This document shows, piece by piece, positions 10,921 through 15,803 of a stretch of DNA of 64,000 nt. This DNA comes from a virus. Numbering within the stretch: position 1 is the stretch's first letter; the number at the start of each line of letters is the position of its first letter. The position numbers were made by a program, and so were the translations under genes. Below the pieces are notes generated by a model, which worked only from the letters and a program-made list of their open reading frames with translations, was not told where the DNA came from and made no database searches. The DNA is taken from positions 124,001 to 188,000 of IMG/VR virus record IMGVR_UViG_3300044680_000280; one strand, 5' to 3'.

Positions 10921-11205
10921 CTACACCGTGGATGCTGAGACCTTCTCCAAAATCATAGCGAGCAACGGACCGATCTTCTCGAACTCGGTCCTCATGTCCT
11001 CCGAGACTTGTTTGAGGAGAGCAACATCCTCATTGGTCGAGGTCACAATCCGTTCGATAGAATCCAACCGACGAATGACACCGGCGAGGTCGTTGTCTAC
11101 CTCATCCACATGCCTGGTTACAAGCTCGAGTTTCGGAGCCACCGCGGCAACAACGGCGATCATAGTCTCTGAGTCTAGATTCTCGAATGTTGCTCTTGTA
11201 CCCAT
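10921..11205 (-). CDS. Small coiled-coil protein
   Basis: 94 aa, almost entirely helical. Heptads run from about residue 25 (LELVTRHVDEVDNDLAGVIR) to the C-terminus. The ATG at 11205 overlaps the final base of the C-extein gene, so the two are co-translated. Possibly a trimeric or dimeric tail accessory protein or chaperone; no homologue recognised. Confidence 0.55.
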   Translation of the reverse strand: MGTRATFENLDSETMIAVVAAVAPKLELVTRHVDEVDNDLAGVIRRLDSIERIVTSTNEDVALLKQVSEDMRTEFEKIGPLLAMILEKVSASTV

Positions 11206-12089
11206 TAGAACCCCACAAACTTTCGTGGACTCAATACACCACGTCCTGCATAGGGTCCGAAAGCGCTTCGAATACCCGTACCAAACTTAGGTTGCTGGAC
11301 ACCCTTGAGGATGTTGACGGTAGCTTTCGCCTTCTCAAGTTGCTGCGTGAAGTTCTCTTGAGCCGCCTGCTGGGCCGCCTCGTACTTCGAAGACTTGTCG
11401 AGGTTTAGGCTCACCCCGCCGATGGTATAGTCGAATTCATCGGCAACCCAATTGATACGAAGCGCCTGAAGGGCGAAGACCATCGCACCCGTCAGAAGCA
11501 AAGTGCGCCACTCAGGTTTCATCGCAACCATGGCGTCAACACTGGCAAACGGTGTCCTAGGGGGAGATGCGATGATCTCATCAAGGGACCGCTCAAGGTA
11601 TTCCTTAAGTTCGTTATTTTCCCAAATGAAGCCGAAGACTCGGCTAAACTGAGATATGGTCTCTTCGTGGGTCGGCGGACGAAAATGGTAATTGCGGTCA
11701 GGAGAGTTTGACACAAGCATACCAGACTTCTGAAGGATGAAATTGTGCCAACCTTCTGCCGTGAGATCATACATGTAGCGACGAGAAGAAAGTCTCTCTG
11801 TAGATAGAACCCGAACTGATGAAGAAGCACCGGCAACGACCGTTTGGGGACTCAGTGACTCCACCTCAGTCTTGAGTTTCGGGGTAAGAAACACACGATG
11901 ACCACCAGTCAGGACAGACGAGCCTTTCGTTGTATGTACCCTAAAAATAGGCTCTGACTCGACCTCTGCGCGCTGTACTTGGAGAACTCGCTTCCACTCC
12001 TGCACCCCGTTCGGGGACACGGATCGAACTCGCAAGGTCCCCGTGTAGAATGCGGACTTGATTCTCTCACTTTGCTGGGGAGTTAACAT
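11205..12089 (-). CDS. C-intein plus C-extein half of a fractured structural gene
   Basis: 294 aa. Residues 1-128 are the C-terminal part of an intein. VSPNGVQEWKRVLQVQR is an early intein strand pair, VLTGGHRVFL is block B with the T-x-x-H signature (H64), YDLTAEGWHNFIL (107-119) is block F, and GMLVSN (123-128) is block G, ending in Asn128. The +1 residue is Ser129, a valid nucleophile. Residues 129-294 are C-extein, starting SPDRNYHFRPP; near the end a helical QQAAQENFTQQLEKAKATVN precedes a basic tail. The penultimate intein residue is Ser where His is usual. Splicing with the product of 12363-12860 would give a 299-aa virion protein joined at RDN|SPDRNYHF. The reading frame matches the N-half (offset 276 nt). 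Confidence 0.85.
   Translation of the reverse strand: MLTPQQSERIKSAFYTGTLRVRSVSPNGVQEWKRVLQVQRAEVESEPIFRVHTTKGSSVLTGGHRVFLTPKLKTEVESLSPQTVVAGASSSVRVLSTERLSSRRYMYDLTAEGWHNFILQKSGMLVSNSPDRNYHFRPPTHEETISQFSRVFGFIWENNELKEYLERSLDEIIASPPRTPFASVDAMVAMKPEWRTLLLTGAMVFALQALRINWVADEFDYTIGGVSLNLDKSSKYEAAQQAAQENFTQQLEKAKATVNILKGVQQPKFGTGIRSAFGPYAGRGVLSPRKFVGF
11706..12089 (-). other. C-intein segment (128 residues)
   Basis: This DNA encodes the excised C-intein, from the initiator Met to the terminal AAC (Asn128) at 11706-11708. The next codon, TCT (11703-11705), is the +1 Ser. The segment is much longer than the C-half of standard split inteins (about 35-40 aa) because the split lies near the start of the intein fold. 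Confidence 0.82.
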
Positions 12090-12345
12090 CGAAGTCCTTT
12101 TCCGTCCAGATCAAAAAGTCCCACCCCATACTGGCCGCATAGGAAGAAGCTGCCTCAAGTCGACGCTGCACGTTATGGTCCGTTGGGAGAGACAGCACCC
12201 AACTTGCTTTAACTTCAATGAGAGCAACGGTTCCATCCTGATGTGTCACAACAAAGTCTGGAAGCATCCAGCGACCGTCCGGAAGTTCTATTCGCGGTTC
12301 GAATACGTACTCTCTAACGGAGGGGTCCTGGTCTAATAAGGACAC
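12067..12345 (-). CDS. PD-(D/E)xK nuclease inserted between the split-intein halves
   Basis: A 92-aa protein with a GTG start at 12345 and an in-frame TGA just upstream (12358-12360). It has a PD-(D/E)xK active site: RWMLPDFVV (D30) and ALIEVKASW (E44, K46). The N-terminal layout (F-x-P-R-I-E-L-P-D-G) resembles the TnsA N-domain and small Holliday-junction- or homing-type nucleases. It lies between the N-intein and C-intein genes, in a different frame from both, and overlaps the C-intein start by 23 bp. Known fractured intein loci often carry a free-standing homing endonuclease at this spot; a PD-(D/E)xK example would spread the locus by cutting intein-free alleles. The homing role is inference from position. 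Confidence 0.75.
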   Translation of the reverse strand: MSLLDQDPSVREYVFEPRIELPDGRWMLPDFVVTHQDGTVALIEVKASWVLSLPTDHNVQRRLEAASSYAASMGWDFLIWTEKDFDVNSPAK

Positions 12346-12362
12346 AACGACAAGGGATCAGT

Positions 12363-12860
12363 TCAGGATGTGCCGTGAATGGCTTCGTATAGGTCACGGA
12401 TAGATACTACCATATTCTCCCCACTCACGTCAACTTCTATCGTCTCCTCTTCACCTACACAATTGTCCCTAAGTAGAATACGGAGTCTCCGACCCATGTC
12501 CTGCTCCGCGGACGTTAGGGTCGGTTCAATCGAATCCGGGTTGACCTTGTCAATAACCGAAAAGTTCATGAGCACTTGCTGAATGGGCGCCCCCGGCATT
12601 TCACGAAACGTCCAGCGAATGCGATATTCTCCTAGATTTGCGTCCAAAGGAACGATAATGCTCGCAAAGTACTCCCCTAGCGATGGGTTGACGGGCTGAC
12701 GACGCGGAGCCCCAACGAGAACTTCGCGTCCCGTCGTAAAGTCGTAGAGAGCGTAGCTAATCTCGGCAGCGTTCTCGGGGGTTCCGTTGACGTTGTCGAG
12801 AAAAATGCTCAAGTCGTTACGACCGAGCTGCTGTCCCTTGTAAAAAGCGCTACCGCTCAT
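12363..12860 (-). CDS. N-extein plus N-intein half of a fractured structural gene
   Basis: 165 aa. Residues 1-133 are an Ig-like virion domain (SYALYDFTTGREVLVG, then YRIRWTFREMPG and MNFSVIDK) followed by a helix ending RRLRILLRDN. Cys134 then starts an intein block A: CVGEEETIEVDVSGE, continuing to VVSIRDLYEAIHGTS at the stop. This 32-residue segment has the C-x(4)-T-I, G and I-R-D-L-Y landmarks of the very short N-halves of atypically split phage inteins. Related Ig-like domains occur at the C-terminus of 14406-15803 and in 16236-16640. The stop is TGA at 12363-12365. Confidence 0.85.
   Translation of the reverse strand: MSGSAFYKGQQLGRNDLSIFLDNVNGTPENAAEISYALYDFTTGREVLVGAPRRQPVNPSLGEYFASIIVPLDANLGEYRIRWTFREMPGAPIQQVLMNFSVIDKVNPDSIEPTLTSAEQDMGRRLRILLRDNCVGEEETIEVDVSGENMVVSIRDLYEAIHGTS
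12366..12461 (-). other. N-intein segment (32 residues, starts at Cys134)
   Basis: Codons from TGT (12459-12461, Cys134) to the last sense codon encode the N-intein. Standard split inteins have N-halves near 100 aa; 32 aa marks the atypical class in which the break falls just after block A. Confidence 0.8.
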
Positions 12861-13186
12861 TTGACCTCTTCGAGATCCTCCTGTGGCACAACGTGTCGAC
12901 CGTTCTTCTCGAGCTGTACATAGAACTTTCCAAACGGAATGTATTTCTCGATGGTACCCACGTCTCCGTGCCAGTGAGTTAAACCGTGAGAGGGCAGAAC
13001 CCTTACCCTCGTGCCTGGCTTCAGGCTAGACGGCACGCTCGCAACGCGAGCGACAACCTTCTTGACAATGAGGGCGTCCTGAAAATCTCGAAGTTCTCGA
13101 CTCATGGCCGTCTTTCCTTGGGACTTCCTCTTACTGGGAAGCCAATCCTCGTTTTCTGCGTCTAGGTGTATCTCAAGCTTGGCCAT
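12857..13186 (-). CDS. Small KOW/SH3-like protein, unknown role
   Basis: With the ATG at 13186, which forms a TAATG junction with the ADP-ribosyltransferase stop, the protein is 109 aa. The C-terminal half (LKPGTRVRVLPSHGLTHWHG, then VGTIEKYIP and FYVQLEKNG) looks like a KOW/SH3-type small barrel, which often binds nucleic acid or protein. The N-terminal half is charged and helical. Its stop overlaps the N-extein gene start by 4 bp. No specific function is visible. Confidence 0.55.
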   Translation of the reverse strand: MAKLEIHLDAENEDWLPSKRKSQGKTAMSRELRDFQDALIVKKVVARVASVPSSLKPGTRVRVLPSHGLTHWHGDVGTIEKYIPFGKFYVQLEKNGRHVVPQEDLEEVK

Positions 13187-14415
13187 TACTTCTTCTTTCC
13201 ACCACGTCCAACACACTTACCGTGTATGGCTGAAGCTCCCATCACAACCATCTCAGCCTCACCAGTATAATCTGTATTCGTTTTGGCTTTTGGGTTTGCA
13301 TCGGATCCCATGATCGGGGTCGTCAGATAGGACCAAAAGATATTTTCCACGGGAACCTTCATTTTGAAGGCGGTTCCAAAGCCGGTAGCTTGAGACGGGT
13401 CCGAGGAAAAGCTTGAAAGTTCCCTTGTCTTCACCACGAGGTCATCCCCCGGCTGAGCCTTATCGGCACCTTGCCCATTGACTCCCCTGAACAAGGTGAG
13501 TTCCTTCAATCCAAGATGCTTAAAAACAGCACGGTTGAATTTCAGAATCTCGTGGGCGTACTCTTTCATTGCTTGGTCCTTGGCACCCCTGGCCCGACCC
13601 TCTTTGGCGTCCGCCTCTTCCTTGGGAAGAGTGTAGCCCTCAACCCCGAGACTGCTCATGAGCCCATTGATCTCATCGGAGGGTGGTTGACCAGAAGAGT
13701 CCGTCCAGTCCATGACCAACCCATTATGGACCTTGTTCAACTTGGAATTGGACTTCAAATGCTTTTCAAAGTACTCCCCGATCATGTACCCGTTGACGTG
13801 GAGTAGCTTCTCAGCTTCAGACAACTGAGAGAAAGCCTCCTTAGCGACGGAGGGGGTGTCCTTGTCAGACCTGGCACCGAATTTCTTCTCGTATTCGGCA
13901 ACACCCTTCTTCATCTTCCCAATCACCTCATCCAAAGCCGCCTTGTGTTTGGAAAGGGTCTCATCTACTTCCTTGTCCGTAACGATGAGTTCCCCTTTTG
14001 GGGACATTCCAACAGACTTCTTGCTCTCCGTCCTTTTGCCATTGGACTTCGAAGGTTCGGTCTTGGGCTTCGAATCCGTGGACTTATCGGACTCTTCCTT
14101 AGGGGCTTCTCGAGGTATGGGGTCCCTCTTCTCAGGATTCTTCTTGGCCCACTCGTGGTACTCTTTGAGGGCCTTCCGAAAAACGTCTTTATCCTTGAGC
14201 GCCGTCGTAAAGGAGACATCCTTGAAACGGTCTCTGGTTTCTGGATTCGGATTGGGAACCTTTTCCGATCCGCCCTGATGGACCTTATCTAGCCACTCTT
14301 TCCACCGAGGCGGTACCCCACCCTTAGATGGATCCTCTTCCTGAGCGTCCGCGGTGCGGCCCAAGAATCGGGTCATAACTCTCAGAGCAATAGGGTTCAT
14401 TCGACTCAATCCCAT
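13186..14415 (-). CDS. Virion-operon mono-ADP-ribosyltransferase (R-S-E class)
   Basis: 409 aa. The C-terminal ~110 residues carry the three R-S-E landmarks of toxin-type ADP-ribosyltransferases: R310 in LTLFRGV, the S-F-S strand in ELSSFSSDPSQATGFG (335-337), and the E-x-E pair in YTGEAEMVV (E386, E388). This class moves ADP-ribose from NAD+ to arginine in target proteins. T4 Alt, an injected virion enzyme, is the classic phage example. Residues ~95-140 are a Lys/Ser/Pro-rich flexible linker and ~145-300 are helical. The N-terminal NPIALRVMTRFLGR resembles the start of the 123-aa protein at 58088-58459 and could be a packaging tag. Alternative start: ATG at 14400. Delivery with DNA to modify host proteins is inferred from context. 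Confidence 0.82.
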   Translation of the reverse strand: MGLSRMNPIALRVMTRFLGRTADAQEEDPSKGGVPPRWKEWLDKVHQGGSEKVPNPNPETRDRFKDVSFTTALKDKDVFRKALKEYHEWAKKNPEKRDPIPREAPKEESDKSTDSKPKTEPSKSNGKRTESKKSVGMSPKGELIVTDKEVDETLSKHKAALDEVIGKMKKGVAEYEKKFGARSDKDTPSVAKEAFSQLSEAEKLLHVNGYMIGEYFEKHLKSNSKLNKVHNGLVMDWTDSSGQPPSDEINGLMSSLGVEGYTLPKEEADAKEGRARGAKDQAMKEYAHEILKFNRAVFKHLGLKELTLFRGVNGQGADKAQPGDDLVVKTRELSSFSSDPSQATGFGTAFKMKVPVENIFWSYLTTPIMGSDANPKAKTNTDYTGEAEMVVMGASAIHGKCVGRGGKKK

Positions 14416-15803
14416 CCGTACTTAACTACCCGACAGGTCGGATCCCCTGGAATCGGTTTGGTCACGGCATCAACGACCTGAAACGGAAAATCTACCGTAG
14501 TGGGGGCACCCTGAAAGGTCACCTGATAGGACCACCTTATGAGCCAATTACCGGGTTGACCGTTCTCCCCCGACGTTCCCGTAGCGTAGTAAAGCCCCAC
14601 CTTCTGCATAACGGGGGACTTTGCGAATGGACCCGTCTGCATAATGAGCTGACCCCGAACCTGGTACATCGTGTAGCTCACGTTGTACGGAGAAATGGGA
14701 TTTCGAGAACGATCGAAGAGGCAGAGCATAAGATCCCCCCTCGTGAACATGTACCCCCAGCGAAACTGCTTGGTCAGACATGGATTGGTCTGAACATTCC
14801 CACCATCATCGGGGCACTTGCATCCGCCCCCGTGTGGATGGTATTCATCGTTACCGCCGCCACAATTACCGCTGTACGGATAACTGCCCTGACCGTACGG
14901 ATAATTTCCACCGCCCCCACAATCCCTACCCCGTCCAGGAGATAGTAATCGCCATCCCTCTTTGCGCTCCCAAATGTCTAGGTTCGTGTGACCGCACAAC
15001 CTCAACTGAGACCGCTCCCAGTTGTCAGGTAGCGTAGGTTCAGGGTTAGAACTGATGGGTGGGCAGACCGTAGTGACAAGAAGGAACGCGGCGCCACCAC
15101 CCTCTCCGAAGATCGGCATAGGAGCTGAATCCGCTGTCGTTGCAAATCCCAACGCTGAGCCACTCAAAAAATCGTAGGTGAAGAAGTTGGGCTCAGAGAC
15201 CGTAGCACCACCCGACGTAGATCCAGAGAGTAGAACTGCAATGTTGTCGAGAACGGTCGCCATGCCCCCGTCCCGCCCCGAAACGAGGGCAAGAAGATGG
15301 GGCACGGGTGTCGATAGGGTAGCAACCCCTCCGTCTCGACCAGTCTCACGGTAGACCGTATGCGGGGGAATAACTCCAGTGGCAACAATGACCGCCGAAC
15401 CGGCCAAGAGGGCGGTCACAGTGTCCGTTCGAAACGTAGACCCTCCCTGCAACGTAAGGATGACCCCACAGTCGACTCCAGACGCGGTGAATGTTGACTC
15501 GCTTGCTATCTCCGAAGCAACGCCGTCAGACACGAACACGGATTCACCGAACATGTCGGAAACAGCACCAACGTTCACGCGAGGCGTCAACGAGGAGTTT
15601 GCTGATGGGGAGGAGGAGACGGTATATTGAGCTGAAGCGTTGAACGCAATCGTAGCGCTTCCAGACGCAACAGAACCAGCCGCATAGTGCGCCTTTGGAA
15701 TATGACCGAATGACGAAGCTCCGGCCAGGTCCGTCGCTACGAAGTACCTCTCCGTGACAAACGAATCCGCGACGATATTCGCACTAGCGGACATCAGAGG
15801 CAT
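14406..15803 (-). CDS. Glycine-rich virion protein with C-terminal Ig-like domain
   Basis: 465 aa. Residues 1-250 are Ser/Ala/Thr/Val-rich beta-like sequence. Residues about 300-345 are a Gly/Cys/Tyr-rich segment (CGGGGNYPYGQGSYPYSGNC and GGGCKCPDDGG) with several cysteines, which could be disulfide- or metal-linked. The C-terminus (about 370-455) is an Ig-like domain (SYTMYQVRGQLIMQTGP, then NWLIRWSYQVTF and DFPFQVVD) related to the N-extein at 12363-12860. The stop overlaps the ADP-ribosyltransferase start. Likely a tail or baseplate decoration protein. Confidence 0.6.
   Translation of the reverse strand: MPLMSASANIVADSFVTERYFVATDLAGASSFGHIPKAHYAAGSVASGSATIAFNASAQYTVSSSPSANSSLTPRVNVGAVSDMFGESVFVSDGVASEIASESTFTASGVDCGVILTLQGGSTFRTDTVTALLAGSAVIVATGVIPPHTVYRETGRDGGVATLSTPVPHLLALVSGRDGGMATVLDNIAVLLSGSTSGGATVSEPNFFTYDFLSGSALGFATTADSAPMPIFGEGGGAAFLLVTTVCPPISSNPEPTLPDNWERSQLRLCGHTNLDIWERKEGWRLLSPGRGRDCGGGGNYPYGQGSYPYSGNCGGGNDEYHPHGGGCKCPDDGGNVQTNPCLTKQFRWGYMFTRGDLMLCLFDRSRNPISPYNVSYTMYQVRGQLIMQTGPFAKSPVMQKVGLYYATGTSGENGQPGNWLIRWSYQVTFQGAPTTVDFPFQVVDAVTKPIPGDPTCRVVKYGWD

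Follow-up and report, generated by a model that had tools for sequence, protein, structure and literature searches.

Fractured genes, described in 2009 by Dassa and co-workers, are among the closest counterparts of the locus analyzed here; in them a phage-type gene reportedly contains a split intein whose two halves are separated by a free-standing nuclease gene. The present locus lies in a window of 64,000 nucleotides (bases 124001-188000 of the 406,734-bp virus record IMGVR_UViG_3300044680_000280, a jumbo phage), where a split intein with a short N-terminal half (IntN) and a long C-terminal half (IntC) interrupts the gene of a predicted head-tail connector, and where the remains of a TnsA-like nuclease gene separate the two halves. 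It resembles the fractured genes in having a split intein in a phage-type gene and a nuclease gene between the halves, and differs from them in several respects: the extein is a predicted head-tail connector, the nuclease at this site is TnsA-like whereas theirs belongs to the EDxHD/Vsr type, the nuclease gene is placed at a short-N split, and some relatives carry two fractures in one gene. Three later papers cite Dassa et al. 2009 for genes of this kind, with their split inteins and free-standing homing nucleases (PMC7090010, PMC3653736, PMC12350094). Usual split inteins are divided into an IntN of about 100 and an IntC of about 40 residues (PMC11923092), whereas here the split occurs about 30 residues in. 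The natural split inteins AceL-TerL and GOS-TerL, with IntN/IntC of 25/104 and 37/115 residues (PMC11766414), share with the present one (32/128) the short IntN and the long IntC, but in this locus the split coincides with a nuclease gene and the penultimate residue is Ser. The HINT fold is common to VidaL (PDB 6vgv), matched by the model of a relative with E 2.3e-7 and 14% identity. The extein here is not the terminase large subunit in which the TerL split inteins AceL, GOS and VidaL reside, and resembles head-tail connectors. We take VidaL to be an atypical short-N split intein of an extein other than a connector.

All components are encoded on the minus strand. The first 133 residues of the N-half gene product (12860..12363, 165 aa) form the N-extein (12462..12860), the Ig-like N-terminal part of the predicted connector, which ends in LLRDN and aligns with the N part of unbroken homologues. 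It is followed by a 32-aa IntN (12363..12461, stop included) that begins at Cys1 (CVGEEETIEVDVSGENMVVSIRDLYEAIHGTS) and has homologues in the other carriers of an intein at this position, hereafter site 1. The C-half gene (12089..11205, 294 aa) encodes a 128-aa IntC (11706..12089), ending WHNFILQKSGMLVSN, and a 166-aa C-extein (11205..11705, stop included) that starts at Ser+1 (SPDRNYHF...). In the C-extein, the position of a second intein of relatives (site 2, DEF/DYTIGG) is uninterrupted. The predicted spliced product has 299 aa. These coordinates and half lengths are as described in the initial annotation.

The residues of a class 1 intein are present: Cys1, the block B TxxH (TGGH, within TGGHR), the Asp and His of block F (YDLT..WHNF) and the SN/S junction, its terminal SN being block G. 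The penultimate His, usual and not obligatory, is replaced by Ser in the window and in nearly all carriers, GHN being found only in locus L070. The C-half matches PF14890 (Intein_splicing, Pfam, expectation value (E) 3.4e-6), and an IntC profile compared with solved inteins matched KlbA (2jmz, E 8.6e-7). An intein-family search of the whole record gave a single intein, at this locus. With 32 residues in a separate gene, and both genes having their own starts, the IntN falls within the range of about 15-37 residues of short-N split inteins (PMC11766414, PMC11923092). A continuous intein of 162 aa at the same site in relative L034 was modelled with split inteins in the alignment (rows of L070 were left out of the alignments for structure models); it adopts the HINT fold with a predicted local distance difference test score (pLDDT) of 96.4 and gave 63 PDB matches at E <= 0.001, inteins leading and NrdJ-1, Npu DnaB and VidaL being among them. 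On this model the split point of the window falls in a linker at residues ~31-36, between two helices, where the confidence dips. The atypical split intein claimed for this structural gene is real and well supported; it belongs to class 1, has a short N-half, and its halves would be expected to splice.

The extein was assigned by its relatives. The 299-aa spliced sequence gave 34 related loci in IMG/VR, mostly as a single unbroken frame, and a scan of the same database with a nine-sequence alignment, from which the best 80 of 174 were kept, extended the set. A Tunturiibacter phage Tunturi_5 protein whose annotation reads head-tail connector is among the matches (30%), as is gp165 of Bacillus phage G (26%), and the C part matches a head-tail connector family in PHROGs (E 0.002). 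The Ig-like tail or neck protein of the initial annotation is thus structural, as stated, and predicted head-tail connector is the more fitting name for it. Among 114 distinct extein alleles, 82 have no intein at either site and encode an unbroken protein, with the RDN-(N/S)-PD junction intact in intein-free homologues as anticipated; that the exteins are naturally two proteins is thereby ruled out. Site 1 is occupied in 16 alleles (15 split, 1 continuous) and site 2 in 21 (16 split, 5 continuous); five alleles have both inteins, four of these being split twice. These counts cannot be read as frequencies in a population: carriers are over-represented through the intein scans, and the extein scan is biased towards unbroken genes. 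The intein scan yielded 15 site-1 loci, all at one site of one gene, to which L070 (huge-phage genome LR745208) and L054 were added. Sixteen alleles with an intein at the identical site, together with 82 unbroken relatives, show that the arrangement of the window is not due to chance.

The residue following each insertion site bears the mark expected of a functional intein. Every site-1 carrier has Ser (13) or Cys (3) at position +1, whereas among the 98 alleles that lack the site-1 intein this position is Asn in 87 and Ser/Cys in only 2 (Ser in both, L086 and L124); the difference corresponds to a Fisher p of about 1e-17. At site 2, Ser or Thr is found in 21/21 carriers and Asp in 72/93 non-carriers (p about 1e-16). 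Both p-values are only indicative, because related sequences are not independent; the consistency among carriers is as predicted for a required +1 nucleophile. Eight alleles empty at site 2 have Ser or Thr at +1 (L043, L048, L129, L144, L155, L160, L165 and L173), and the Ser or Thr residues at empty sites are possibly scars of lost inteins.

Between the halves, the initial annotation placed a 92-aa PD-(D/E)xK nuclease of a type new for this arrangement. The open reading frame (ORF; 12345..12067, minus strand) is in a frame different from that of the halves and matches PF08722 (TnsA-like_N, Pfam, E 4.6e-9), which refines the type to TnsA-like. It proved to be a piece of a longer gene. In L032, L029 and eight further distinct relatives an intact gene of 303-351 codons, stop to stop, lies between the halves, beginning in another frame, where IntN ends or close by, and running to about the start of IntC; RS(S/T)(Y/F)E...PD...E(V/I)K is present in 10/10 of these nucleases, the residues of the pattern (E219, D252, E266xK268) being placed on a TnsA fold. 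In the model of the L032 nuclease (overall pLDDT 77) the nuclease domain at the C-terminus is predicted well and the helical N-terminal part with modest confidence; the best structural matches of the model are Tn7 TnsA (1t0f, E 8e-6, root mean square deviation 2.4 over 132 columns). The catalytic fold is like that of Tn7 TnsA (PDB 1t0f, 1f1z), but here the fold is coupled with an N-terminal region made of helices and sits within an intein gene. In the PDB the TnsA likeness came out only by this fold comparison, a sequence search with the nuclease profile giving no meaningful match. A pattern scan of genome contigs returned 258 pattern matches and no relative of the nuclease, so that the element looks phage-bound in the collections searched.

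In the window, the free-standing nuclease is a truncated remnant. The start GTG is kept at 12397, inside IntN, and the frame is open for 27 codons (VTYTKPFTAHPELIP..., 12314..12397) that align with the beginning of the complete L029/L032 gene; it is then lost at a frame-shifting deletion that removed about 605-617 bp. The 3' third of the gene (12357..12067) continues in another frame, directly preceded by an in-frame TGA. It retains PD...EVK and lacks the helical N-terminal part, the putative DNA-binding half, and RSSYE, and with it the first Glu of the E...D...ExK pattern. Because a whole-region DNA alignment misplaced the upstream flank owing to the deletion, the comparison was made on proteins and junctions. 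A catalytic role of the lost Glu is suggested by its conservation, by its location on the opening helix of the nuclease domain and by existing knowledge of TnsA. With both elements gone, the remnant is probably inactive.

The same ORF could be taken as a functional shortened nuclease or a regulator still acting in the phage. Its frame is open, without internal stops, it shares 79% identity with the L032 nuclease at the catalytic end, and PD...EVK is kept. Synonymous change is saturated in a comparison of nonsynonymous and synonymous rates, which therefore fits a recent deletion as well as a function that was retained. However, the N-terminal two thirds are absent along with the RSSYE Glu that all 10 full-length copies contain, the ORF would have to start at an internal GTG (12345) with no evident ribosome-binding site and the TGA directly upstream, and no second nuclease copy was found elsewhere in the 406,734-bp record. 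The divergence of the remnant probably accumulated before the deletion, which the 79% identity indicates to be probably recent. We therefore regard a function of the 92-aa product as unlikely.

What survives of the nuclease gene may have been kept, at least in part, for another reason. A Shine-Dalgarno-like AAAAGGA (12095..12101, minus strand), suitably placed for the C-half ATG at 12089, is embedded in the conserved WTEKDF codons at the end of the nuclease gene. In most carriers the codons of the WTEKDF-like end contribute a run rich in purines just ahead of the C-half start (GAGAAGGA or similar), and the truncated copies (window, L037, L042 and L050) all retain it. From its position, the 3' end would hold the ribosome-binding site of the C-half, although the window keeps about 290 bp where a few dozen would do.

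Taking these features together, we propose that an intein with its own DNA-cutting gene invaded the head-tail connector gene of a jumbo phage at the codon following RDN. The nuclease gene, in another frame and placed about 30 residues into the intein, where a loop is exposed, would cause intein and protein to be made as two chains, and probably it was this gene that broke the connector gene apart. The two chains would fold into a single HINT domain and splice in trans by attack of Cys1, transfer to Ser+1 and cyclization of Asn, giving the intact 299-aa protein. The TnsA-like nuclease would cut intein-free copies in co-infecting relatives, whose repair would copy the element in. In the present phage the nuclease, lacking about 0.6 kb, is probably dead, and the split intein would be kept because the connector protein still depends on splicing. 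To this sequence of invasion, trans-splicing, homing and decay in the window as a whole we give a probability of roughly 0.88.

Earlier and later stages of such a course are seen in relatives. Among them site 1 is empty, full, truncated, swapped to an HNH nuclease or continuous. In L043 (5172-6011) the TnsA-like gene of this split intein has given way to an HNH nuclease gene (HNH E 1.6e-9); in L050, 771 bp of the nuclease gene are gone with respect to the near-identical L049, with 344 identical bases upstream and 99.1% identity over 1000 bases downstream; and L034, L045 and L046 have a continuous intein and no nuclease. The distribution is patchy, the extein tree (a quick search, with many weak branches) requiring 13 changes of site-1 state for 16 carriers. 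Identity between L047 and L094 is 97.9% as far as site 1 exactly, drops to 80.6% along a stretch, and is 99% from the IntC of site 2 onward. This pattern is evidence for recombination and has the shape expected of a co-conversion tract after homing, in which the nuclease would have been the cutter.

Several observations weigh against the proposed scheme. The penultimate Ser, in place of the usual His, can slow Asn cyclization; all carriers are assemblies from metagenomes, in IMG/VR or, for LR745208, of an uncultured phage, and a site-1 intein is present in no isolate; the intein tree is poorly resolved and places the continuous form neither as ancestral nor as derived; and the good conservation of the remnant is compatible with retained function. 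The missing His would also suit the view that the halves are the remains of a dead intein, the gene being broken and its proteins working as separate pieces, as in nrdA of phage Aeh1; phage genes-in-pieces without splicing are known (PMC3653736). Nevertheless, the catalytic blocks are all intact, +1 is Ser or Cys in every carrier, the intein frames are open in the carriers read and the extein pieces are joined in 82 intein-free relatives, all of which makes a dead intein improbable.

The second intein lies 91 residues into the C-extein of relatives and is likewise split, with Ser1 and an IntN of about 31-43 aa. In the cases examined its nuclease gene occupies the same relative place in the intein and matches Vsr, MTES_1575 and DUF559; it is thus like the EDxHD/Vsr-like homing nucleases of the I-Bth0305I type, whereas the nuclease of site 1 belongs to another family. 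In L041, L044 and L054 each of the two inteins is split and each nuclease gene present, the genes being of two different families, and L037 has both inteins split and its nucleases truncated; in these four the connector protein is consequently encoded in three pieces, the middle one bearing the IntC of one intein and the IntN of the other. In L086 (3983-5433) the order at site 2 is reversed, the gene for IntC and extein preceding that for extein and IntN with no nuclease gene between, so that joining is possible only by trans-splicing. The site-2 split intein of L094 (2289-4627) has Ser1 and Ser+1, and zero cysteines were counted in both halves; cysteine-less split inteins are described as rare (PMC11923092). 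The reversed order in L086 also bears on a single chain formed by frameshifting or read-through and spliced in cis, which the adjacent half genes on one strand and the continuous versions in relatives (L034) might suggest and which we reject as hardly credible, since in the window the N-half stop and the C-half start are 273 bp apart, with stops in the C-half frame in between, and since the C-half is equipped with an ATG and a ribosome-binding site of its own.

On balance we favour, with some reserve, a wider interpretation, according to which TnsA-like nucleases would constitute an unrecognized family of homing endonucleases that makes short-N split inteins by free-standing insertion at an exposed loop that follows the first ~30 residues of the HINT fold. 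The same loop would serve unrelated nucleases of the Vsr/EDxHD-like and HNH kinds, and the process could leave one structural protein in three pieces that needs two trans-splicing reactions. The literature searched, with incomplete coverage, contained no report of TnsA-like homing endonucleases or of a TnsA-like nuclease with split inteins, and within the same limits no natural doubly split gene was found. Short-N split inteins are valued tools for protein labelling whose origin is not well explained. Since one gene shows empty, full, truncated, nuclease-swapped and continuous alleles in related phages, splitting and decay can be followed step by step within it by direct comparison. The 16 site-1 and 21 site-2 inteins constitute a natural collection in one protein, the cysteine-less pair of L094 included, the three-piece relatives are a candidate natural system for two-step trans-splicing, and the locus points to the TnsA-like nuclease as a candidate homing enzyme.

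Some further observations concern the surroundings. A near-identity DNA search of phage records with the first 25 kb of the window gave no match. In L036 (6946-8445) a large ORF lies directly 3' of the C-half, with ORFs likewise placed in L042, L043 and L048; the L036 ORF matches DUF7487, has a Vsr-like end by eye and looks like a further free-standing homing nuclease. In the window, an ORF of 409 aa (13186-14415) has a weak match to DRAT-type ADP-ribosyltransferases (E 3.3e-4, under the Pfam cut-off). The C-terminal Ig-like part of the upstream gene at 14406-15803 resembles the N-extein by eye, and weak upstream copies are seen in many relatives.
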